The notes beneath the pieces are model-generated. The model searched no databases. It was not told where the DNA came from and saw only the letters and a list, made by a program, of their open reading frames with translations. The position numbers and the translations under genes are program-made. A DNA stretch of 64,000 bases from Cucumis sativus. Taxonomy: Eukaryota > Streptophyta > Magnoliopsida > Cucurbitales > Cucurbitaceae. Below are positions 34,539 to 58,893 of this stretch, one piece after another; position 1 is the stretch's first letter, and every line of letters starts with the position of its first letter. Where the stretch lies: NCBI RefSeq assembly GCF_000004075.3, contig NC_026660.2, forward strand, positions 29,949,498 through 30,013,497, given 5' to 3'.

Positions 34539-35336
34539 TCACTTTCCAGGAACAAAGTTTGTAGCATAGGCCCAAGCATTGTTGTTGACTGGGTCAGCAA
34601 GGTGATCAGCCAAATTCTCCAATGGACCCTTTCCGGTAACGATAGCCTGAACAAAGAATCCAAACATGGAGAACATAGCTAACCTTCCATTCTTGAGCTC
34701 CTTAACCTTCAACTCAGCGAATGCCTCTGGGTCATCAGCCAAACCCAATGGGTCGAAGCTTCCACCTGGGTAGATGGGGTCAGTCACCTCTCCGAGTGGG
34801 CCACCAGCAATACGGTAACCCTCGACGGCACCCATCAACACAACTTGGCAAGCCCAGATGGCCAAAATGCTCTGAGCGTGGACCAAGCTGGGGTTGCCCA
34901 AGTAGTCAAGCCCGCCCTCGCTGAAGATCTGCGAACCAGCCTTGAACCACACAGCTTCACCAAACTTCACACCATTACGAGACAAAAGCTCAGGGAAAAC
35001 ACACCCCAAAGCTCCAAGCATGGCCCATCTGGAGTGGATCACTTCCAACTCACGGTTCTTGGCGAAGGTCTCGGGATCAGCTGAAAGTCCAGCAGTGTCC
35101 CAACCGTAGTCACCAGGGAACTCTCCGGTAAGGTAGGATGGTGGCTCACCAGAGAATGGGCCCAAGTACTTGACACGGTCAGGACCATACCACGGGCTGC
35201 CGGAAGAAACTGACTTGCTGGCAGTCTTCCTCATGGTGAATTTTGCATTGCCCTGAATTTCAGGGGCATTGGGGGAAAGTTTCACGGCTTGGCCGGCCAG
35301 AGTTGGGGAGGAGAGAGCCATTGTAGAAGCAGCCAT
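34539..35336 (-). CDS. LHCB1: LHCII chlorophyll a/b-binding protein, LHCB1 (copy A)
   Basis: Major light-harvesting antenna protein of photosystem II, imported into chloroplasts and inserted in thylakoids. Single exon, 265 aa. Start taken at ATG 35336 ([10 protein letters not shown]...), the conserved LHCB1 N-terminus; codons upstream in frame lack an ATG. After a transit peptide of about 35 residues come the three-helix LHC signatures: helix B with '[16 protein letters not shown]', the '[20 protein letters not shown]' stretch including the trimer motif WYGPDR, helix C, and helix A with '[20 protein letters not shown]', whose Glu/His/Asn residues bind chlorophyll. It differs from copy B by only two residues, both in the transit peptide (Thr/Ala at 5, Asn/Thr at 23). 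Transcribed away from copy B across a 1.6 kb spacer. Confidence 0.97.
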
Positions 35337-35409
35337 TGTTGGAGGTCGAATAAGGCCTGTGATCAACGGTGGAATGTATTTTGTGGTGAGGAAGCTATGG
35401 GTGGGTTTG

Positions 35410-35480
35410 GTGAGTTTAAATAGTGGGCAAAGAGAATAGATTCTTATCCCTTGGTATCTGTATCTTCAATCCCATTGGAG
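35410..35480 (-). promoter_or_regulatory. LHCB1 copy A core promoter: TATA, I-box, CCAAT
   Basis: On the minus strand: CCAAT (35474-35478), GGGATAAG (35443-35450, an I-box/GATA motif) and TATTTAAA (around 35415-35422), in the order and spacing expected of light-regulated LHCB promoters. The TATA word lies about 80 bases before the ATG. Confidence 0.65.
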
Positions 35481-36835: not shown

Positions 36836-36917
36836 CCATCATTCCTCTTCATCAAACTCATCCACCGCCTCTTCACTTAATTTCATACCCATTTCAACTT
36901 CTTTCTGAATCATTCCA

Positions 36918-37715
36918 ATGGCTGCCTCTGCAATGGCTCTTTCCTCCCCAACTCTGGCCGGCCAAGCCGTGAAACTCTCCCCCACTGCCCCTGAAATTCA
37001 GGGCAATGCAAAATTCACCATGAGGAAGACTGCCAGCAAGTCAGTTTCCTCCGGCAGCCCGTGGTATGGTCCTGACCGTGTCAAGTACTTGGGCCCATTC
37101 TCTGGTGAGCCACCATCCTACCTTACCGGAGAGTTCCCTGGTGACTACGGTTGGGACACTGCTGGACTTTCAGCTGATCCCGAGACCTTCGCCAAGAACC
37201 GTGAGTTGGAAGTGATCCACTCCAGATGGGCCATGCTTGGAGCTTTGGGGTGTGTCTTCCCTGAGCTTTTGTCTCGCAATGGTGTGAAGTTTGGTGAGGC
37301 TGTTTGGTTCAAGGCTGGATCTCAGATCTTCAGCGAGGGCGGGCTTGACTACTTGGGCAACCCCAGCTTGGTCCATGCTCAGAGCATTTTGGCCATCTGG
37401 GCTTGCCAGGTTGTGTTGATGGGTGCCGTCGAGGGTTACCGTATTGCTGGCGGCCCACTCGGAGAGGTGACTGACCCCATCTACCCAGGTGGAAGCTTTG
37501 ACCCATTGGGTTTGGCTGATGACCCAGAGGCCTTCGCTGAATTGAAGGTTAAGGAGTTGAAGAATGGAAGGTTGGCAATGTTTTCCATGTTTGGATTCTT
37601 CGTTCAAGCCATTGTTACTGGAAAGGGTCCTTTGGAAAACTTGGCTGACCACCTTGCTGACCCAGTCAACAACAATGCTTGGGCATATGCCACAAACTTT
37701 GTTCCCGGAAAGTGA
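36918..37715 (+). CDS. LHCB1: LHCII chlorophyll a/b-binding protein, LHCB1 (copy B)
   Basis: Second intronless LHCB1, 265 aa, with the same mature protein as copy A. It is an inverted, head-to-head duplicate. Nucleotide identity is uneven. Bases 37050-37255 match copy A exactly as far as I can read, whereas the last 225 coding bases carry about 20 silent differences. The C-terminus [14 protein letters not shown] and the helix signatures are those of LHCB1 rather than LHCB2 (which starts differently and lacks [16 protein letters not shown]). Product: PSII antenna trimer subunit in the thylakoid. Expression is probably light- and GATA-motif-dependent. Confidence 0.97.
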
Positions 37716-38133: not shown

Positions 38134-41100
38134 CTACAATTCATCCCTCTGCAGCTTCAGAAGGATGGACAGAACTCCATTCATGTCAGGTCTATTCTCA
38201 GGATTTTGGTCGGTACAGCTTAGTGCTAGTTTGAGCAGTTTTTCTAACCTCGTTTGCTCTTTCGAATCATTCAAGACCAACACAGGATCCAAAACTTGTC
38301 TAAGTTCCTCTTTTCCATTAGCTAGAGCTCTCTCTACCAGTTGCTGCAAGCTGATTGGGAGTCCATGGGCTTCAATGGTGGCAGTCGGCCTTTTCTTTGT
38401 CAGAAATTCCATCAGTATTACACCAAAACTGAACACATCTACTTTTGTTGTCACTTTCCCCATGTATGCAAACTCTGACAATACGGGATCAGATTCAAAT
38501 ATTTTACCAAAAAAAAAAAAGAAAGAAGAAAGAAAATAGTTTTATCTAATTCAAGTCATTGCTGAATCAACTGAAGTTGCTGCGGATTCAAATATCAAGA
38601 GAAGACACCGACCAAGTTCCCTCAATTCAGTTGGCTTATGCCGAATACATGAGACATGGAATGCCAGTTATGCGATTTATTATAATATTTTTGCATGTGG
38701 AGTAGTAGACCTTATAATATAGGAATGAACTTTAAAATAGTACCTGGAGCCAGATAACCGATAGTGCCTTCAAAAGCTGCTGAAGAGGAAATATTGCTTG
38801 TGTATTGGTTTTGCACCCCCAACACTCTGGCAGTTCCAAAATCGCTCACATGGGCTACCCAGTCTCCATCAAGAAGGATGTTTGAAGGTTTCAAGTCGCA
38901 GTGAATGATGGGGAAATCATATCCATGATGCAGGTATTGCATCCCACTAGCAATGGAAACACAAATATCAACCCTCTTTGACAATGGACAACTTATTTGA
39001 TCTGTTCCGGAGTTATGTATTATCCTATCCAAGTTCCCATTTTCCATGTATTCAAGAACGATAGCCTTCAGCTTCTGACTTTCCCAAGCATACCCAAGTA
39101 CTTTCACCAAATTCCTATGTCTAAGTTGACAAAGAATTTTGATTTCTCTATTGAAGTAATCATCTGATTCTGCAGCAAAATATTGCAAATTCAATCTTTT
39201 TACAGCTACAACCTGTCCATTGTCCAGTTGACCCTTGTAGACAGTGCTTAAAGTACTGGAACCTAGAATGTTTTTATTGGCGAAGTATTCTGTTGTGATC
39301 TCCATACCCTTCTTATCAAACCTCTTAAGGGTACATGCAGAATCCATTGATGGTTCAGGATTCTCAATACTTTTAGATTTCTCAAGCTTACAGTATCGTT
39401 TTAGAATTAAGAAAATTATAGCCAAGAGTACAAGAATAGACCCAACGGTTATGAGAATTAGTAAGTTCTTTTTTGTTAGAAGTCGCGAATCCTTCTTTCC
39501 ACAAGGCGGTAAAGACTTGGATCCACAAAGAGCAGGATTTCCTTCCAAGCTAGAAGCATTTATTTTTTTAAATATTCCAGTGTCTGGAACAGGACCTTCT
39601 AATTGATTAAAGGAAAGGTTAACATACTTCAATGATGAAAGTTTTTGCGGGATTCTGCCATTGAACTGGTTTTGAGAGAGGTCCAAATAGTACAAATGCT
39701 CCAGATTTGCCAACTCTTCAGGGATTTCACCAGCTATTATGTTTCGTGAAAGGTTTAAGTTAGTGAGCATTTTCATTCCAGTAAAAGCATTCCCTGGAAG
39801 CCTACCAGAAAGATCATTTCCTGACAAATCAAGGAAGAACAAATTTCTACAACCTCCAATCGTTACTGGAATAGTCCCAATGAGATTGTTGTTTGAGAAG
39901 TCAATGGATTGAATCATTTGCAACAACCCAAGCTCAGCTGGAATACCTCCTACCAGGAAATTGTAGGACAAGTTCATATATAGCTGCATATCTTTCATAC
40001 CTGAGATTAAAACCCCAGGAATTGATCCAGATAGATGGTTGTGGGACAAATCTAACATCACAAGTCGATGAAGATTCCCCATACTTTTAGGTACGGATCC
40101 GTTAAACATGTTTCCATGGAGATCCAAATAGGAAAGAAACTCTAGCTTTGAGATGGCATCTGGAATTGGACCTGTGAACTTGTTGTTCTGCAAATGAAGA
40201 TGAACCAGTTGTTTCAGATCAAATATTTTTTCAGGAATCCTTCCTTCCAATGCATTGTCATGCAAAGAAAGAGCTTGAAGAAGAGAGAGCTTAGACAACT
40301 CCCCAGGAATTTGACCTGAAAATTTATTTTCTGCAAGTATTAAAGTGTTGAGTCTGCTTAAGTTGCCAATGTCCCCTGGAATCTCCCCAGAAAATGAATT
40401 TGATGCGGCTCTGAAAACTCGAATATTGGAAAGCTTGCCAATATTGGATTTTAACAATCCAGTGAAATTGTTTAGAGCTAGGTCTATGACCTCAAGAGAT
40501 GAACAATCAAATAAGTCATCTGGGATTTCACCAAAAAACCTATTTGATCCAAGAAAGAGGGAAGTAAGATTTTCAAACTTCCCGAATCCCAGGGGTATTT
40601 TCCCTGTCAGCCTATTGGATGAAAGATCAATTATAGAAAGCTGGGTACAATTGGCAATACTAGACGGAATTGAACCCACTAAGAGATTGCTGCTCAATGT
40701 CAATCTCTTCAGATTATAAAGCAAACCTAAAGTGGATGGAATCTCACCAGTGAAAAAATTGTAGCTCAGAGACAAATGTGTTAAGTTAGACAAGTTTGTC
40801 AAAGATGAAGGAATCATCCCGGAAAATCTATTTGAGTGAAGGGTCAAAACCTGCAATGATCTCAGAGATTCAATATCAGAAGATATAGTTCCACTTAACT
40901 CGTTCTCTGATAGAAGCAAATGGGTTAAACCTTTCAACTGTAAGAGAGATTGTGGTATAGTGGAGTTTAACCTATTTTTATATAGACGCAAGGTTTGTAA
41001 ATGAATCAGAGAGCCTAATTGTGAAGGAATTGGACCACTGAACTTATTGTTGTATAGTTCCAAAGAAAGAAGCTTCTCACATTTACCCATCTCCTCCGGA

Positions 41101-41873
41101 ATCTTCCCAACCAAAGCATTCTCATACAATAAGAGATATTCCAAATTCAACAAATTCCCAATCTCCACTGGTATGTTCCCAGACAAGTTGTTCTGGCTAA
41201 GATCTAGACTTTGCAGTGCATCTAGTTTGCCAATAGAGAGGGGAATGGAACCTTCTAGCTTGTTGACATATGCAACCAGAATTTGAAGATTGACTAAGCT
41301 TCCTATGTTTGATGGGATTCTGCCGGTGAGATTATTAAATATCACACCGAATCCTAACAAGTTCGTGCAATTGCAAATGCTATCAGGAATGCTTCCCTTT
41401 AAGAAGTTATGACCCAAATCAACATATTGCAAGAACCCAAGGTTTCCCAACTGGGGTGGAATGTGGCCTGAAAGAAAGTTTCCGTAAAGAGTTAGCTGAG
41501 AAAGGTTGGAACACAAACCCAATTCACCTGGAATCGGCCCGGAAAACGAATTGTCCGATAAATCAAGAACCTGCAGAGCTGAGAGGTTCCCAATAAATGG
41601 AGAAATCTTGCCTTCAAGCTGCTGATCAATCAAAGTAATCGAAACGACCCTTTTGGATTCAGAATCACAGATAATGCCAGACCAATTGCAGTAGTGGTCG
41701 TTAAGGTCCGTCCAATCAGCAAGTGCTCCCAATGGGTCGAAATGGATGGAACTTTTGAAAGCCTTTAAGGCTTCCAATTCAACTTCCATGGCAGATTGGC
41801 GTTGGGCATATAGAACCCTGACTAGAACAAAACTAGCCATCATGAAAATGGCTAAACTAACGTAAGAAGCCAT
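38134..41873 (-). CDS. FLS2: LRR receptor-like kinase, FLS2 type
   Basis: Plasma-membrane receptor kinase. FLS2 binds the flg22 epitope of bacterial flagellin with co-receptor BAK1 and starts pattern-triggered immunity. Exons on the minus strand: 41873-38744 and 38474-38134, joined in frame (...GYLAP|EFAYM...) across a 269-base intron, giving 1156 aa against 1173 in Arabidopsis. A signal peptide (about 1-24) is followed by an LRR N-cap with CNWSGIIC, a long solenoid of 24-residue plant LRRs (about 28), a C-cap with paired cysteines, a TM helix near residues 805-825 and a Ser/Thr kinase. The Gly loop reads GSSTLSTVYKG. The catalytic loop is HCDLKPSN, so this is a non-RD kinase as expected for pattern receptors; DFGTAR follows. 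The intron position near the activation segment matches FLS2. A related LRR-XII receptor is possible but less likely. Confidence 0.93.
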
Positions 41874-41934
41874 CGTTACTGTTTTCTGAAGGATGACTCT
41901 CTCTCTCGCTCTCTCTATACAGACACTTCTTAAG

Positions 41935-41943
41935 TTTATATAC
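41935..41943 (-). promoter_or_regulatory. Probable TATA box of FLS2
   Basis: GTATATAAA on the minus strand, about 65 bases before the ATG, followed by a GA/CT-rich leader (41897-41918). Confidence 0.55.
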
Positions 41944-44462: not shown

Positions 44463-45445
44463 GCCACACGAGGAGTTGTTTTCACGATACGCATTTGTCA
44501 AACTCCGTGGACCCCACTGCTCCATCCGATCACGCGTGATTGATCCAACGGTTGTAATAGCATCCCATAATATACGGAAATCATTTCCATCCAACGGCTC
44601 TCAGCTCTCTGGGTTTGACTATTGTCTGTCTCGCTATACATGATGCACAGATTCCAACAAAGAAAATTTTCTTAAATACTCTCTTACCCCTACTCTCTTT
44701 CTCTCTCCCATTCTTCCTGCCAGATCTTTACCTTGCAGACCAAATCTGGGCACTGATCTACCGAACTCTTACCAAAAATCGTCCGATCCTCTTCGTTTTT
44801 CTGCCTGATTCAGCTCTCCAATCACGTGGGTGAAATTTCTTGTTTCCTTTTTTCAGGAAACTTCGTTGATTTTCGATTCTTCTAGCTTGCTCTAATGGAG
44901 ACCTAGGGCACCTTTGATTTGTTCCGCTTCTCTTAATTGCTGGGATGTGTACTGGGAGAAGTTAATTTTCGACTGATTTGTACTTCCTTCTGCTGTTTTT
45001 CTTTTTTCTTTTTCTTTAATTATTGTTCTTGTCTGGGGGGTTTTCTTTCCATTGTGCTTTCCTAAATTTAACTTGAAATTACTGTGTTATTGACTCTGAT
45101 CTTTCTCTGTGTTTTTGGGTTGTTTTGTACTCGATTCCTTTTGTTATTGTGTATGATACTGAGAAAGTTAGATAATATGAATGATTTCGATGGTCGGTCA
45201 GGTTCTATTCAGGGGAGAGTGGACATCTAACCTAGATTAGCGAGTTCTTTTGTCTTTTAACTTGTAATTATGCATACAAACGTTGTTTGCTTAACTTTAA
45301 TGCACTTTGTCTGTGGTCATTGGATGGGAGTTCGTGTTTTACATTTGTTAAACTGTACATAATGTTTCTCTTTTGCTTGCTTTCTTCTTCATTTTAGGAT
45401 TGGGTTTGTCTTTGCAATTAAGTGGAATTGGAGAATAGAATCAAG

Positions 45446-45523
45446 ATGCCGTGGACAGCCTCTTTGGTGAATTACAGCAGCAAGTGTGTTCGCTTGGTGG
45501 TCTTCTTTCGTGTCATTCTGTAA
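45446..45523 (+). CDS. Upstream ORF, 25 aa, in the SAC51-like leader
   Basis: The ATG at 45446 opens a 25-codon frame (begins MPWTASLVNYSS, ends VVFFRVIL) closed by TAA at 45521. It lies in a probable leader exon (acceptor near 45397, donor gtgaga at 45538). Ribosomes would meet it before the conserved uORF. I do not know whether this peptide is conserved. Confidence 0.45.
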   Translation: MPWTASLVNYSSKCVRLVVFFRVIL

Positions 45524-45922
45524 TTTGTTTTGCATTGGTGAGATTTCTGGAACGAATCCAATTATGTTGATTACCGTACTTAAGTAGACGGTTAAGAAGT
45601 TGTGTAAGTCTTGGAGGTAGAATATTTCTTATTAGTATATCAAAACTATGATCATTCGTAGGCCTTGTATTCAATTTCCAAGGCTGAAAGTTGAGCTCTG
45701 ATGGGCTTAACTTTTCGGTTTTCAAAGGTTAAGATCGCCCATGGAAAAATATGACTGATTTTTGTGTATTTGTCAATATTATTATCGTGCTTGTGAAATT
45801 TAGAAAGTGATTAAGCTATTTGCTTATGGTTATGTGCAGGGGGAAATTAAAACGTTGACTTTGTTAGTCTATCTTCCTTTTGCGGTTAATTCACTTTTAT
45901 CTTACTGGTTGGAGGAGTGAGA

Positions 45923-46729
45923 ATGTACATTGGTATTACGGGAAAGAGAAACAGAGCTGTTGAGGAGATTGGGAAAGTTAACATGAGTGTTGGAATCATT
46001 GCCTACTACCAAGTGATGCAAGTTTGCCAGGTAAACCACACTCTTTATATTTTACACTCCGGTGCTTTGTTTGCTGTCTACACTTCACATTACACATTTG
46101 AAGCGCCTGAATTTTGATGTTGTTAGCTGTCTCTTTGCTCGTGAAAAATATCTGTCAACTTCAAAGTTAAAATGATTAAGTACTTTCACCTTAGCTCCTA
46201 TTTTTTCTCCAGCCTTTCTCCAGCCTTTCTCCAAGTAGCTATAGTTAACAAATAATAATTAATGACGAGGGGAGTTTTTACTTGCAACAATATTCTAGAT
46301 ACTGGTGTTTGTTTCTAATGTTCTTTCTTTTGATTGTTTAATAGCTAAACTAAGGCATTCCAAATATTAAGCAAGCATACACATGCATTTTGCCATTTCA
46401 AATTTAAGATTTTGTATTCTGATCCCATGTTTACTGTATCTCAAAGAAGTAACTTCGTTTCATAGCTGTTTGTTGCTACTTGTTTGGAATTGTAGTTTCA
46501 AAAATTGGTCACTGGTGAATTGTTCAATTTGCCGCAAATCCTTTTTATCCATCAGTAAATTCCCTGAGCACATTATTGAATAAACTAATACTTTATGTGA
46601 ACATTTGATTGTCTTTACTGCTTCTGTTGGAGTACTAAAGTTCATCTTTAAGTTTCCTGTTATTGACGACTTTCAATTTGTTCCTTACAGGCTGAGTACT
46701 TCCGCCAGTTGCTAAAACCTGTCACGTAG
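45923..46729 (+). CDS. SAC51-type conserved peptide uORF, split by an intron
   Basis: Spliced upstream ORF of 48 aa: exon part 45923-46030, intron 46031-46690 (gtaaac...ttacag), exon part 46691-46729. The end of the peptide, QVCQ|AEYFRQLLKPVT followed by TAG, is the hallmark of the conserved uORF in leaders of the SAC51/SACL bHLH family. In Arabidopsis this uORF represses translation of the main ORF, and thermospermine (or suppressor mutations) relieves the repression; the system acts in xylem differentiation. Start taken at ATG 45923, the first ATG in the frame; an internal ATG at 45983 would give 28 aa. The main ORF begins 274 bases after the uORF stop. Confidence 0.88.
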
Positions 46730-46802
46730 GATAACATTGCAAAAAGTATTTGGACATTGGGGAGTTGGGTGGACTGGCCTCCAGTTGTGCTAGAGTGAAG
46801 AA

Positions 46803-47003: not shown

Positions 47004-47753
47004 ATGGACTTCATGCAGAGTGACCTCAACTTTTACCTCAAGAAGGCAACGCATCCCACAGCAACCCAGGGGGACGATAATCATATGCAGATTCCTCTGT
47101 CATCTGCCTTTCCTTCTGTTTTGCCTCCTGGGAGAAAGAACTTGGGACCTTTCAATACTGTTGAGTTTCAACCTTCTGAAGTTTGTCCCCAAAATTTCAT
47201 CATCTTTGACCACACTGACAATCGAAGCCAAATCATGTTTCATCCTGCACTTGCCAACAAACTCAGTGGTCCTACTGCAAATATGTGCTCAAAGTATATC
47301 CAAAAGAACTTCTGCGTCAATGACAAGCATCACGAAGATAGAGAAATATCATCTCCTTTGATGGAGGATTTGGACGATATCGATGCATTATTGAGCTTGG
47401 AAAACGAAAATCACGAGGACCTTGATGGATCTGAAGATGACGAGGTCAGCACTGCAAGATCTCATTTGAATTATGGAAATCAATCCCCCGATTCTTCATC
47501 CTCCTCCACTTACAGCTCAAAACCCAGGAAGAATCACTCATTTAATCCTGTCCACAAGTCGTCAAGCAGTGGAAGCAGCTGCAACAGCGACGTGAAACAG
47601 TTAAAACTGAAGAAAATGGTGAGAAAACTGAGAGAGATTCTCCCCGGTGGTTACCAAATGACAACAGTTGCTGTTCTAGACGAAGCTGTTAAATACCTGA
47701 AGTCTCTGAAGGACGAGGTGCAGAAACTCGGAGTCGGGGGCTTGGAGAACTAA
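47004..47753 (+). CDS. SAC51-like atypical bHLH factor (bHLH143/145/SACL group)
   Basis: Nuclear HLH protein of 249 aa. The main frame is one exon; the leader is spliced, with probable leader exons near 44700-44825, 45398-45537, 45840-46030 and 46691 onward. The start is ATG 47004 (MDFMQSDLNF); the frame extends upstream without another ATG. An acidic Ser-rich middle (about residues 110-165) precedes a C-terminal HLH: 'LKKMVRKLREILPGG' for helix 1 and 'TVAVLDEAVKYLKSLKDEV' for helix 2. There is no proper basic region, so it should dimerise rather than bind E-boxes itself. SAC51 relatives antagonise LHW-TMO5 dimers and restrain xylem growth in response to thermospermine. The conserved uORF at 45923-46729 supports this assignment strongly. 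Confidence 0.9.
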   Translation: MDFMQSDLNFYLKKATHPTATQGDDNHMQIPLSSAFPSVLPPGRKNLGPFNTVEFQPSEVCPQNFIIFDHTDNRSQIMFHPALANKLSGPTANMCSKYIQKNFCVNDKHHEDREISSPLMEDLDDIDALLSLENENHEDLDGSEDDEVSTARSHLNYGNQSPDSSSSSTYSSKPRKNHSFNPVHKSSSSGSSCNSDVKQLKLKKMVRKLREILPGGYQMTTVAVLDEAVKYLKSLKDEVQKLGVGGLEN

Positions 47754-48861: not shown

Positions 48862-51856
48862 CTAATTAAAGCTAAGCTCCACTGGGAAAGATACTTCTCC
48901 ATCTCCGACCACAATGGTGTGCCCACCCGCCGGCAGCAGATTGTACCCTGTAAAATCAACAAGCCCCAAGCTTTTACAAGCATTCAACTTAAACGTCACC
49001 GTTTCGCTATCCCCGGCTTTCAGAAACACCCTCTGGAATCCAACCACCTGCTTTATATGTGTCGAAGAAATTCCACCTGGCGGAACCGAGTACACTAGCA
49101 GCACCTGGCTGCCGTCTCTCTCGCCGGTGTTCTCAACTTCCATTTGGAATTCGATCTCCTCGGTGCAAGTCAGGTCGTCCACTAGGACGGCGGGGCATTC
49201 GGGCTTGAAGGTACCGTTGGTGTAGGCGATGTCGCGGCATTGAGTCCTGTTGCTGAGATCGATGGCGATGGACCGTTTGGCGGAAGTTAGGTTATGGAGG
49301 AAAAAGGTGTAGCTGAGGCCGTGGCCGAATGGATAGACGACGGGACCGTCGTAGAATTTGTAAGTTCTTCCTGGATATCCAAGGCTTTTCACTGGCCGGA
49401 GCGGCATTGATGTCATTGGAAGCTGGTACACGTAGTCGTTTTCATACCATGTCAATGGTAATCTTCCTCCTGAAATGAGACAACAAAATCTTAGCTCTAA
49501 TTTCATTTATCTCCTTGGATTGATAAGTTAGGGTATATTTGATCTTTTTGACCTGGGTTGAATTTTCCGAATATGACGTCGGCAATGGCACGACCGCCCT
49601 CCTCGCCTGGATATCCAGCCCAGATAATGGCTTTGATGTTGGAGTTGTTCTTAGCAAAAGATACGTCAATACCGCCGGCGGACAAAATGACAAGAACAAC
49701 TGGGCCCTTAGAGACAGTTGCAACTTGTTGAACGAGTTGAGTTTGGTATCCAGGAAGAAGAAGATCAACTCTGTCCAAGCTCTCTGCTTCAATGGACAAA
49801 TCAATACCAACAAAAATCACAGTTGCATCAGAGGTCCTGGCTGCCTCCATGGCTCCAAATATGAAGGTATCGTTTTTGCAAGCAACACTATCACACCCCA
49901 TTTGGTATTTCACTTTTGCATATTCTGATAGCCCATCCATTGGGGAATTCATTCTGCATGGCACTCCTGCAATAGAACAAAAACAGAACATTTAGATTAT
50001 TACGAAATTCAAATGTTTTAAGTTAATGGGTTAGGATAAATTTCATATTTGATTGAAGAACATTGAGTTAGAGAAGGAAAAGGTAGAGTTTTGAGCTTAT
50101 AATTTGACCTGCATAGTTGCCAAGCATGGCAGAAGTGGCATTGGCATGGGGCCCAACAACAGCTAGGGTTTTATAATTAGAAGGATCAAAAGGCAAAGTG
50201 TCATTATCGTTCTTGAGTAAAACAGTTCCTTGTCTAGCAGCTTCAGTGGCCAATTCAATGTGTTCATCAGAGCAAATATCTGGTTTTCCAAGTGATTCGA
50301 AACCAGTGTTTCCATCAAAGTACCCAAGTCTCATTAGAACAACGTAGAGATTGTTTAGAGCATTGTCAATGTTTCTCATCCCAACTTTCCCTTGCCTTAC
50401 TGTGGATTCTGTGTAATTTGGGTAAATTTGACCACAATCCAAATCCAACCCTGAAATTTTACATTGGAATAGTTTAAATTTGATTCATGGGGTTTGATAA
50501 AAAAGCAGAAAAGGATCCACCCAGAAGAAGGGACTTAAAAGTGTAAGGTAGAAAAATTTACCTGCTTTGAGAGTTTGAGCAACGGCATCTTCATTTGTGT
50601 CTTGTAGATAATGTGCATCTTCTACCATAACTTTAACTGAGTCACAGTCTGAAACAATGTATCTGAAAAGAGAAGAAAATAGAAAAATATTATAATTCAT
50701 CCACCGGAGTCTAAGGGACATTTATGTGGTTTGTTATCATCAATTAATTATTATACCCATGAAGACCCCAATTGCCTCTAATGGTGTCCTTCAAGAGAAC
50801 TGGATCAGCACAAGTTGGAATGCCATTAACTCTGTTGTAAGAGCACATTACGCTGCTAACATCTCCCTCCTTAACACACATCTCGAATGGCTTATTGAAT
50901 GTCTCCAACATATCTTGTTCAGTCACCTAATTCACATTGTTTGAAAACGTTAATATGGACATAAATTATGTTTATTGTTTCTTATCCATTTCTATTGATT
51001 TGTAACAAGTTTTTTCTTACCCTAGCATCAAAACTGTAACGTTCAACACCGAGCCAATTGTCAACATCATAAGCAGCATAGTGCTTGCAACACGAAGATA
51101 CTTTTAGAGGCCTAGAGTTCAAATCTGTAACATTCTCAGATCCTTCCACATCTTGGAGACCTCTAACGTAATTCTTAGCATATTTGCCAACGACAAAAGG
51201 GTCCTCGCCGGGGGTTTCAACAGTTCGTCCCCATCTTGGGTCTCGAATCACATTGATGGTTGGACTCCAGTATGTCAATCCAGCTCTCCCTAGGTTGTAC
51301 ATTGCTCTTGCTTCCGTTGAAACTGCCTAATCAAACCAACACACCAAGTTTTCAGTCAAGCCATTAAACATGCTCTAAAGGTTGAGCGTTCCAACTTTAC
51401 CTGCCCAATTGTTTTCCAAAGATCTTCATTGAAAGAAGATGCAGTGGTAATGACATTGGGGAAGCTTGTAGCACCTGGCACAACTTTGTCAAATTGGGTA
51501 CCGGGACCGACGTTAGAGACGCCATGGAGAGCCTCACTCCACCAATTGTATGGTGGCAAGCCAAGGCGGTCTACTCCAGAAGCTACATGTCCAAGCTGAG
51601 CAGCTTTCTCAGACAATGTCATTCTATCTATAAGATCCTTAGCTCTCTCAGGGAAAGAGAGAGATGAATCGCAGAAGCCAAATGAAGAAAAGTCTAAGCC
51701 AAGTTTGTCATATCTAGAGGGATCACAAACAAAAGTGAAGTTGTTAACGGCAGGAGGATCATCAAGGAGACTTCTTCTTGGGAAAACTCTCGCATTGGCT
51801 GTGAAAATGAAGAACAGAGAAAGAACTGAAATCATCATGATTGGTGAGCTCGCCAT
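48862..51856 (-). CDS. GH3 beta-D-xylosidase / alpha-L-arabinofuranosidase (BXL family)
   Basis: Secreted cell-wall hydrolase that trims xylosyl or arabinosyl residues from xylan or arabinan. Seven exons on the minus strand: 51856-51401, 51326-51021, 50926-50757, 50662-50562, 50450-50109, 49966-49553, 49469-48862, joining in frame to 798 aa (usual length about 770-790). A signal peptide ([20 protein letters not shown]) is followed by the GH3 N-terminal barrel with '[19 protein letters not shown]', '[17 protein letters not shown]' and 'IVSDCDSV'; Asp316 of SDC is the predicted nucleophile. The GH3 C-terminal domain carries '[18 protein letters not shown]', where the acid/base Glu is expected, then a fibronectin III-like domain from about 680. 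ATG 51856 is preferred over the in-frame ATG 51898, which sits inside the TATA box. Closest to BXL3/4/5-type plant enzymes; substrate preference is not predictable from this. Confidence 0.93.
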
Positions 51857-55078: not shown

Positions 55079-58020
55079 GGTGAGCTCAGCTGCTCTTCAA
55101 CCATAGATGCGTTAACGTCCACTTGTTGTATATCTTTTTCATTTCGGATTTTTTCTCTGACATTCTCATCTCATGCTTCTTGTTGTTTGGGCTAAATATT
55201 TGAGCACTTGGCTGTATCAAATATGGCAGGCAGTTAGATTCTTGATCCTTTCAAAATATTTCAAATTTTATTTGAATTCTGGACAGAGAAATAGTTTGAT
55301 AGGAACACTACTAAGGCTAGCTTGTTTATTGAAACTAAAGTATGTTACAACTATTATTCTATTTCAATCATGACTTTTATTATAGTAAACATAAAAATCA
55401 AGAACTAGGCAAACTCCCATTAAAACTTGTGAGAATTTGCTCTTTTCATCGAACCAAATTAGTAGAAATAGTTTTTTATCACATTTTTTTCCCTTTAGTT
55501 GCAAGTCAAAGGTATTCTCATTTGTTTGTTTGTGGAGGAGGGTGGGGTGGGGGGGAATAATAGAGATGGTTTCTTGTGCTCTGATGTTGGATAATAACAC
55601 TTGGAAAGAAATTTCACAAGTGCTTTTTGTGCTCTTCTGTTTTTTCTCTATATTCAGAAGTTATGCTGATGTGGTCACTCAAGGTCGTCCTTGTCGATAT
55701 TGATGATCCACGCAGTGAAGGTAAATTCTTCATTAAGCATTATTAACCTTTTGAAGGAGCTCCCTTTTATGGATCTTCATGCATTGGTTCTTTTCAGAAG
55801 TCTTTCTAGATTTCTTACTGTATACTATTGAAACTGAAGCTTTTGCTGACTAAACATTCCCAATCACTTCACTTCGGCATAACAAATCATCTCGTAAATG
55901 TTTTAAAGCTTTGAACAACAATTGAACGGAATTGATGAACAGATTCTTGAATAATGTTTACATGTTTCCATTTTTTAGTAAGAGGATGACAGTATTTTGA
56001 ATCGATGGCAATGTATGATGTTTTTGGGTCATGAAAATTGGTAAATTACATGGAAGGTAAAAAGTTTTCTGAAAAAAAAAAAAAAACTATTTAATTCTTA
56101 AAGATATTTAAGTAAATTGTTTATGTTTTATGAAAGAAAAAATTTACTGATTACATCATAATTTTAAAACCGTGGGGGGATTACTACTAGCCCATAGAAA
56201 ACAGCAGTATACAAGGATAAAGATTCCTTCTACGAGGAACAACTTTTATTTAAAAAAATAGGAAGAGGAAAATAACTTCTAAATTGAAATTGTGAATAAA
56301 TAAAAATCAAATTATACTTGGCTTAGAGGTTTGTATCACTTAAAATTCTAAACAATTAGTTGCATGATCTTGTTTAGTAATAATTTCTATTTTTTTAGAC
56401 ACACTGTCTAATGTTACTTTGCTTCTATATTTCTTACTTGTTATTGACCTTCTACCAATATTTTAGAAAATCAAAGTTAATTATTTAGAACTAAAAAAAA
56501 CAATAAAATTTATTTTAATTTTTGAAATTTGGCTAAAAGGGTTGATTTTCTTTAGTTTTCAAAATTGAACAACATTGGTAGAAAAATATCTAATAAAGTA
56601 AAGAATAATTCTGAGGTGGGAGGGATGCATATAAACATAATGACTTGATTATCAAAAATTAAAAATTGAAAATCAAATTGTCACCAAAACAATGCCTGAG
56701 GTATTAGGATTTATTTGTACTTGAAGGAATATTAGAGATAAAGGTTAGAATCTAATTGTCATCTTAGATTTAACATTTCCGTTTTACTAAAGTAAATCTT
56801 AAACTTGACTAATGAACTTTATATATATATATATATATATCTATATATATATTCGTAATCAAATGGTTAGAGTTCTTTGAATGAGTGGATGAAATTATTT
56901 TTGCATGTTAGTTAATTTATCAATTTTCTTTCTTCAATCACTGGGACAATATGAGTTGATGAATTCGAAAACGATACCTTTTGATTATAAGATAAATGTC
57001 ATTTGACCAATATAGACTGTGTACATAAATTTCAATTATGCCAAAGAAATAACCATTTATTGTTAATAAAATATCAAATCATAAGTTTAATCAATGAAAC
57101 TTTCATCATTCTGATTAATTAGCTATATCTCTAAATTAAAAAAAAAAAATCTAGCATCTTCAAATTTCTGTCTAAAAAATATTTGACATGTTCAACCTTC
57201 TACAAATGACCTAAATATTAAACATGACATCAAATGTTGTGATGAATATGGATATTCACCTTAAAATTCAAGTTTTCACATCAAAAACTTCAACACTATG
57301 TGTTCATTAGTTTTGTAAATTTGAGATTATGTCAAATTGTTAATTGAATACAAATATTGTTAAAGAGATTTTATAACAAACATTTTGGGGTGTTTGATGC
57401 ATATTATTATAGTTTGAGTTATTATAATCTATATTTAGGAAAGTAAGAAACATTGAAAGGAGGGAGTGAAGTATAGTGATATATATAAGAGACGAGAGAT
57501 GAAGAATAATGAAAAGGAGTGAGGAATAGAAGAAATAAGGAAAAAAGTAGAATTGTGATAATCTTTAGGACAAATATGGAGTGGGCTAAAACGACTCTTT
57601 AGGATTTTGAGACAACTTTAGACCCAAAATTTAAAATTTTAAAACTAAATTAGATACTTAGAATACACAAGCTTGTACAAAAACTAGATTTAATTTAACC
57701 TAGATTAATTAAGAAAATAAACAAAATGAGTGAAACATTTTGAATGGGTGGCTGCCCATTGTATAGAAAGAGAGGGCCAAATAGTATGAAAACCCACTAA
57801 GAAATTAGTGTAGAGTGTGAGGAAGAAGAGGCCAACTCAGATATTTAAATGCCTTAACGTTGTTACAACACAAACCTCACTCCTTTCCACTACTTGCTAT
57901 ATATGTCAATCCAAATCCAACACCAGAACATAAAGATAATATCATAACATTCAAACCAAAAGAATAATCCCTCAAATTCTCCATCCCCATCTTCCTCAAA
58001 ACACAACTCTTGTTCCTCTC
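55079..58020. other. Intergenic spacer between IMP1 and the MADS gene
   Basis: IMP1 3' UTR (with a probable extra exon at about 55658-55721), AT-rich DNA, a (TA)n tract at 56820-56853, a degenerate dispersed-repeat-like stretch at about 57590-57690, and the MADS gene promoter and leader. No gene seen. Confidence 0.55.
56820..56853. repeat. (TA)n microsatellite with one interruption
   Basis: About 34 bases of alternating TA interrupted by a single C. A smaller relative lies at 9401-9416 and another at 15225-15241. Confidence 0.85.
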
Positions 58021-58893
58021 ATGGACTCCTCCGCCCCAAACGCCCCCGTTGCCGGCAACAAGAAGCAAACAAAGGGACGACAAAAGATCGAAATGAAGAA
58101 GATCGTAAACGAAGACGATCGGTTAATTACATTTTCCAAACGGAGGTCAGGCATCTACAAGAAGGCAAGCGAATTAGCTACCTTATGTGGGGCTGAAGTT
58201 GGAGTTGTTGTGTTTTCGCCTGCAGGAAAGCCGTTCTCGTTTGCACATCCATGCATTGAAACCATCGCAAACAAATTTCTGAATGGCAACAAGAACAACA
58301 AGGGAAACAACGATGATAACAATAACAACGGCGATAGTAGCAGCAGCAACAACAACAACAACAATAGCAACAACAACAACAACAGCAACGCAGCGCACCC
58401 GCTCGTAGAGGCTCACCGACGAGTGAGAATCAACGAGTTGAACCAGCAACACAATCAACTTCTAAGCCAACTAGATGCAGAGAAAGAGAAAGGAAAAGCA
58501 CTTGAGAAGCTAAAAAGGGTAAGAGGAAATGGGAGAGGTTGGTGGGAAACTCCTACAGAAGAATTGGGAATAGAGGAATTGCAAGAAGTGGATGCATCAT
58601 TTGGAGAAATATATTCAAATGTGTGTCATCAACTGAAACAAAGAGGAGTTATTGGATGTTGTTCTTATAATAATTATAACAACAATATGAATAATTCCTC
58701 TATGGGATTTCCATTAACTAATGATCAATTAGGGGAAGAAACAATTCCTTTTAACATTTTGGCAGGAAACGTTCCTCCTCCTCTTTTTCCTCTTCCTCCC
58801 CCACCTCCTTATCTTCCTCCTCCTCCTCAATTTGATTTCGGAGAACAACAACAGCATCCTCATCCTCATCCTCCTCCTCATCCTCATCCATGA
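58021..58893 (+). CDS. Type I MADS-box factor, AGL62/AGL61-like (M-alpha)
   Basis: Nuclear DNA-binding regulator; M-alpha AGL62/AGL61 proteins act in the central cell and endosperm. Single exon, 290 aa, intronless as usual for type I. The MADS domain is at about residues 18-78 ([11 protein letters not shown]...[15 protein letters not shown]...[19 protein letters not shown]). It is followed by an Asn/Ser-rich tract (about 88-123), a charged coiled-coil segment (about 128-165) and a [11 protein letters not shown] motif seen in AGL62-type proteins. The end is rich in Pro and His (last ~60 residues; [11 protein letters not shown]). There is no K-box, which excludes type II. The low-complexity parts are coded by near-perfect trinucleotide and hexanucleotide repeats, so length is probably polymorphic. 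Confidence 0.9.

Follow-up and report, generated by a model that had tools for sequence, protein, structure and literature searches.

The leader of an HLH gene in Cucumis sativus contains a 48-codon uORF that we assign, with a probability of about 85%, to the SAC51-family (HG15) conserved-peptide uORFs; it is predicted to be split over two leader exons and to lie before a SACL3-like HLH gene. The gene was found in a stretch of 64,000 nt, referred to here as the window, and the anatomy of the element can be read from it directly. Joining 45923–46030 to 46691–46729 produces an open frame without a shift (36 codons, then 12 and TAG), with CAG/GTAAAC as the donor and TTACAG/GCTGAG as the acceptor. 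The spliced peptide is MYIGITGKRNRAVEEIGKVNMSVGIIAYYQVMQVCQ joined to AEYFRQLLKPVT, with TAG right behind AEYFRQLLKPVT. Without splicing, the frame encodes 64 aa, runs to 46117 and lacks the conserved C-terminus. The first-pass annotation had claimed a leader peptide with a SAC51-family C-terminus and an immediate stop, and the 48-codon frame, the splice sites and three paralogs in the same genome all agree with it.

SAC51-type uORFs of other species end in AEYFR-LLKPVT. As in HG15, the C-terminus is conserved up to the stop codon, here within one genome. Arabidopsis SAC51 (uORF4, 53 aa) and the HG15 uORFs of SACL1–3 likewise lie upstream of a SAC51-type bHLH frame, and the AtSAC51 uORFs are described as lying in exons 2 and 3 (PMC6504692), comparable to the division of the window uORF over two leader exons. 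The three paralogous uORFs have 53 aa like AtSAC51 uORF4, whereas the window uORF has 48 aa. The window gene further differs from Arabidopsis HG15 in the diverged N-terminal half of the uORF, its two internal in-frame AUGs and the length of its main protein, 249 aa.

Table 1 Features of the window gene and counterparts of its short leader frames (window coordinates unless a locus is given)
Feature	Position	Strand	Basis or remark
Leader exon 2, with uORF-A and conserved uORF codons 1–36	45398..46030	+	Inferred; acceptor TTTTAG/G at 45397/45398, donor CAG/GTAAAC at 46030/46031
uORF-A, 25 codons, MPWTASLVNYSSKCVRLVVFFRVIL then stop	45446..45523	+	Relatives at the same place in three other leaders
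uORF-A counterparts	L027 4435; L047 1181 (reverse); L026 3948 (reverse)		
uORF-B	L027 4576; L047 1320 (reverse); L026 4094 (reverse)		
Conserved (HG15-type) uORF, codons 1–36	45923..46030	+	Frame, splice sites, four-uORF alignment
Internal in-frame AUG, Met21 of the uORF	45983..45985	+	
Internal in-frame AUG, Met32 of the uORF	46016..46018	+	Opens a 17-codon frame sharing the uORF C-terminus
Intron inside the conserved uORF, 660 nt, phase 0, Q36/A37	46031..46690	+	Inferred; same position in paralogs
Conserved uORF, codons 37–48 (AEYFRQLLKPVT) and TAG	46691..46729	+	Paralogs, blastn, alignment
In-frame stretch past the uORF stop, DNIAKSIWTLGSWVDWPPVVLE then stop	46730..46798	+	
Main ORF, 249 aa, short SAC51-type (SACL3-like) HLH protein	47004..47753	+	
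Atypical HLH region, residues 190–239	47571..47720	+	Pfam bHLH_SAC51 best match

Leader and main protein of the window gene

Leader exon 2 was assumed to be unbroken because the distance from uORF-A, a second short leader frame, to the conserved uORF is similar in all four genes (477 nt in the window, 444 nt in C7, 428 nt in C2 and 410 nt in C4, paralogs being named by contig). Possible splice sites would also allow an additional intron at about 45538–45839. Assuming that this part is free of introns, the main AUG follows the uORF stop after 274 nt, an interval that includes two very short frames of 9 and 8 codons. The in-frame stretch behind the uORF stop was considered as a read-through extension and set aside as unsupported, as nothing alike occurs at that place in C7, C2 or C4.

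The main protein is, judged by its similarities, a short and diverged SAC51-type member, with 249 aa compared to 360 aa in C7, 362 aa in C2 and 354 aa in C4. Pfam PF23173 (bHLH_SAC51) was the best of three matches to its HLH region at 19 bits (E 0.0014), below the curated cut-off of 28.5, and we therefore call the HLH region SAC51-related and not a Pfam member. The C7 and C2 proteins pass the same cut-off with 56.2 and 52.4 bits (C4 was left out of this comparison). When the N-terminal part and the HLH of the window protein were each compared with those of C7 and C2, the scores were reached by 0 of 2,000 shuffles in every one of the four comparisons, which makes the frame behind the uORF one of SAC51-type bHLH; in the case of C2, the N-terminal similarity sits in an acidic, low-complexity part. 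Outside the HLH, the window and C7 proteins share a block near NFIIFDHTDN (EFIIFDQTGN in C7) and an acidic block. In the genome search, the window HLH scored at least as high against several other bHLH frames as it did against the C2 and C7 paralogs of SAC51 type, and the C7 protein as query found the window frame weakly (E 0.185). The label SACL3-like follows from the short protein and the internal AUGs and is partly our presumption. The pairing of the uORF with a downstream SACL-type HLH, also put forward in the first-pass annotation, is strengthened by the paralogs, in which each of the three uORFs likewise precedes a SAC51-type frame, with the reservation that the window HLH stays below the Pfam cut-off.

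Paralogs and constraint on the uORF peptide

Paralogs were sought in the same genome (226.6 Mb, 88 contigs, with the window on contig C6), starting from the HLH part of the window protein. This search gave 17 matches at E up to 10, and all 16 other than the window itself were inspected for the conserved C-terminus upstream. In two of the 16, on C2 (L015) and C7 (L018), the frame is preceded by AEYFRHLLKPVT and a stop codon that directly follow a splice acceptor. Joined to their first exon parts across predicted introns of 149 and 107 nt, respectively, these loci yield 53-aa uORFs, MVCQAATQTRFRTLKHENGIAGSATIIVRVIACFQPLQDCQ followed by AEYFRHLLKPVT in C2 and MVCQAASQTRFRALKHENGIAGKPTIIVKVIACFQPLQNCQ followed by AEYFRHLLKPVT in C7. 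The C7 first-exon peptide was then used to search the genome and, besides its own locus, matched C4, C2 and a C1 fragment, four places in all; the window was not among them. The C4 uORF also has 53 aa, MVCQAATQTRFRALKHENGIAGKPTIIVRVIACFQPLQNCQ followed by AKYFRQLLKPVT, with a predicted 144-nt intron, and its main frame stays open for 354 codons, is diverged at the HLH end and has a protein region matching C7 at 47%. Own-genome searches with the 48-aa window peptide, or with the C-terminal exon and the stretch downstream of it, returned the window only and missed all three paralogs. The C1 fragment (C1:30852183; L048 around 2684) was rejected as a member, as AAG stands where the start codon should be and the surroundings lack a second half; with a match of only 18 codons, all from the opening part of the conserved uORF, it reads as a relic of a SAC51-type leader. 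The places reached thus appear to comprise four intact members and one relic, and a fifth member is possible. Viral and prokaryote contigs were also scanned for copies of other plants' uORFs, and none turned up.

All four uORFs end in TAG and are split in phase 0 between Q and A, with GT and AG at the borders of the predicted introns; splicing of the uORF in all four genes is predicted from the splice sites, the frame and the common split. That the peptide is conserved within the genome was observed directly. In the four-uORF alignment, 21 of 53 columns are invariant, 12 of them within the last 14, and in this genome the conserved C-terminal peptide ends at the stop codon in all four uORFs. 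Of the four, the window uORF has diverged furthest, with 50% identity to C7 compared to 92% for C4 and 89% for C2. It alone has internal in-frame AUGs, at 45983 and 46016; C7, C4 and C2 have none, and in the alignment these paralogs have the L of their QPLQ opposite Met32.

The three 53-aa uORFs differ mostly by synonymous codons, with synonymous to residue-changing ratios over 53 codons of 22:4 (C7/C4), 15:6 (C7/C2) and 20:6 (C4/C2), and with 16–23 differences at codon position 3 compared to 1–6 each at the first two positions. Counting for the window uORF was limited to the last 19 codons, since the first halves are too diverged, and gave 3:4, 9:4 and 6:4 against C7, C4 and C2, respectively; three of the four residue changes against each paralog precede CQAEYFR. 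When the window leader was compared with the C7 and C2 leaders by blastn (E up to 0.01, C4 left out), one block was returned for each, 61 nt at 82% and 52 nt at 83%, and both blocks extend exactly up to 46729, the final base of the TAG. Besides the divergence of the window uORF, further observations run against the identification as a conserved-peptide uORF. The C7 and C2 leaders share two blastn blocks, the second of which continues for about 55 nt beyond the uORF stop, and between the window and C7 the residue changes are at least as many as the synonymous differences.

Two further leader frames, uORF-A and uORF-B

uORF-A starts 48 nt into the inferred exon 2 and, across the four genes, lies 410–477 nt upstream of the HG15 uORF. 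Its counterparts have 25–26 codons and encode MPWSSSTVDVFHKVVRLKICCWFIL in C7, MLWLSLSIDVFRKVVHLNLYCRVIL in C4 and MRWCLSLSVDVFRKVISLNLYCKVIL in C2, each followed by a stop. Alignment scores of the window peptide against 20,000 shuffles were 47 with C7 (reached by none), 33 with C2 (reached by four) and 37 with C4 (reached by one), and scores of 53 (C7/C2), 63 (C7/C4) and 98 (C2/C4) were each reached by none. When leader frames of the window, C7 and C2 were paired across genes (47 pairs), those of uORF-A took the top three ranks, the lowest of them sharing its score of 33 with one other pair. With dinucleotide-preserving shuffles of the exons of these three genes (C4 left out), none of 400 rounds reached the score of the best window/C7 pair or of the best triple. 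The window and C7 peptides are identical at 11 of 25 residues, 7 of them with different codons, and no DNA similarity of uORF-A among the window, C7 and C2 was detected by blastn at E up to 0.01. A genome search with the C4 uORF-A peptide found C4 and C2 only, missing C7 and the window. Homology of the uORF-A frames across the four leaders is well supported by these comparisons. Strong constraint on the whole peptide is unsupported, as residue changes outnumber synonymous ones in five of six pairs: 14:7 for window/C7, 16:5 for window/C4, 17:3 for window/C2, 12:5 for C7/C4 and 12:6 for C7/C2, with only C4/C2 reversed at 5:9 (one extra C2 codon is omitted from the count). Six columns are invariant in the four sequences (M1, W3, K13, L17, I24 and L25).

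uORF-B (MGSN..., 16–17 codons) is common to C7, C4 and C2. It was not found in the window leader, where the five frames of at least 10 codons score 16 or less. By its length it may correspond to the 16-aa uORF2 of AtSAC51. We tentatively view the leader as an ordered set under selection, consisting of uORF-A (M-x-W ... I-L-stop, four genes), uORF-B (three genes) and the HG15 uORF, a view to which we give a little less than even weight. If it is true, uORF-A would be a second nascent-peptide element that predates the split of the short SACL3-like gene from the others, and it would set the number of ribosomes reaching the HG15 uORF; in Arabidopsis SAC51, loss of the start codon of uORF1, 2, 3 or 5 is reported to reduce reporter output.

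As a possible counterpart of Arabidopsis uORF1, uORF-A also bears on a printed disagreement over the conservation of SAC51 uORF1. The AtSAC51 uORFs are given as 20, 16, 48, 53 and 6 aa, with the first and fourth ‘highly conserved’, in Kakehi 2015 (PMC4308196), and uORF1, 2, 3 and 5 are called ‘not conserved’ in Ishitsuka 2019 (PMC6504692). A search of the main text of the 2007 paper cited by Kakehi 2015 found neither SAC51, At5g64340 nor At5g09460. The four Arabidopsis genes form group 15, traced as far as fern, in Hayden and Jorgensen 2007 (PMC2075485). ESUCA counts HG15.3 among the known regulatory uORFs and uses sub-numbers for dissimilar conserved uORFs within one ortholog group (PMC7106846), which implies that HG15.1 and HG15.2 should exist. 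In our reading, HG15.3 would stand for the SAC51 uORF4 type, with HG15.1 and HG15.2 as possible labels for uORF-A and uORF-B.

Predicted thermospermine response and competing explanations

Ribosomes translating the window uORF would be held near its stop codon by the nascent C-terminus AEYFRQLLKPVT, and few would then get as far as the start of the main ORF, at a distance of 274 nt provided the interval is free of introns. This hold would be relieved by thermospermine through an action at the ribosome, allowing more HLH protein to be made, and the extra HLH protein would restrain LHW-type bHLH dimers and xylem formation. Inhibition, stalling, thermospermine relief and the xylem role are all drawn from what is known of the family; relief of this uORF by thermospermine, to which the first-pass annotation also pointed, is by this analogy a sound prediction, and we regard it as plausible and somewhat probable. 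Exons of thermospermine-synthase type were observed directly in the genome. Pfam Spermine_synth matched 15 exons, and four of the exon peptides were taken into structure-chain matching. Three of these, from two genes (C6:18094394-18095211 and C2:277825-278533), had the thermospermine synthase ACAULIS protein 6bq2 as their best match (E 6.7e-14, 7.8e-20 and 4e-19), and the exon of another Spermine_synth gene matched spermidine synthase best and 6bq2 last. No work on these uORFs in cucumber was found by title or abstract start among the matches listed, nor did LLKPVT appear among the matches listed in a literature text search for the peptide letters. Cucumber thermospermine catabolism has reportedly been the subject of a paper (PMC7937916).

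In Arabidopsis, sac51-d is a premature stop in the conserved uORF that frees SAC51 translation, acl5 is also suppressed by uORF mutations of SACL1 and SACL3, and reporters carrying the SAC51 and SACL3 leaders give higher output with ribosomal-protein alleles of RPL10A, RPL4A and RACK1A (PMC11913374). Nascent-peptide stalling together with NMD or no-go decay was considered by Kakehi 2015 (PMC4308196), and the thermospermine response was not reproduced when the SAC51 leader was translated in vitro (PMC6504692). The leaders reported as responsive are those of SAC51, SACL1, BoSACL1, GmSACL3, OsSACL3A and OsSACL3C, and those reported as unresponsive are AtSACL2, AtSACL3, BoSACL3, PtSACL2, GmSACL2 and OsSACL2 (Ishitsuka 2019, PMC6504692). 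A 2025 abstract speaks of alleviation by thermospermine for SAC51 and SACL3 alike (PMC12436307). According to Ishitsuka 2019, all responsive leaders tested have uORF4 and an internal in-frame uORF6, and the response of the SAC51 leader requires uORF4 or its in-frame uORF6 and survives loss of uORF6 alone (PMC6504692). GmSACL3 and OsSACL3A/C, whose leaders responded when assayed in Arabidopsis, are described as having a conserved uORF with internal in-frame AUGs, by description a likeness to the window uORF (PMC6504692). Should responsiveness go with the internal AUG, the responsive gene here would be that of the window, and as the only one of the four with internal AUGs it offers a natural test of the 2019 observation on AUGs and response. 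Coupling of a small molecule to main-frame translation through a peptide uORF is also known from the AdoMetDC dual uORF and the sucrose-dependent uORF of bZIP11, where the metabolite raises repression, whereas for SAC51 it relieves repression (PMC6504692, PMC4308196). The present genes would extend this known polyamine-to-translation switch to cucumber, with four testable members.

Plant leaders often contain short frames, these four have several more, and the uORF could on that count be a chance frame without function; we give this next to no credence and reject it on the four-gene comparison, in which peptide, split and stop are conserved and change among the three 53-aa uORFs is mostly synonymous. 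The identical phase-0 split in all four genes, together with the different end of the 64-aa unspliced window frame, would also fit splicing as the control point, with retention of the 660-nt intron producing an unrelated tail and releasing the main frame and the split being kept as a switch. Intron positions are often kept through descent alone, and control by splicing appears improbable.

More weight, while still unlikely, is due to a uORF that is genuine and inhibitory yet insensitive to thermospermine, as found for Arabidopsis SACL3 in 2019, and that acts as a constant brake and a trigger of NMD. Several leaders carrying the conserved uORF are reported as unresponsive (PMC6504692), and SAC51 and SACL3 are named as NMD targets in the 2025 paper (PMC12436307); set against this, the window uORF has two internal in-frame AUGs, one of which may match the internal AUG common to all responsive leaders, including soybean and rice SACL3 (PMC6504692).

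Other genes surround the HLH gene in the window. Upstream, two near-identical frames at 34539-35465 (−) and 36909-37715 (+) lie on opposite strands and point apart; both presumably resemble chlorophyll a/b-binding proteins. A long frame at 38712-41942 (−) is, we assume, LRR receptor-kinase-like. Downstream of the HLH gene and on the opposite strand, 48862-49991 (−) matches the C-terminal part of Glycosyl hydrolase family 3 in Pfam; this gene probably continues to 51898, as further frames look like parts of the same gene. Farther on, the frame at 57940-58893 (+) resembles what we take to be a type I MADS-box protein.
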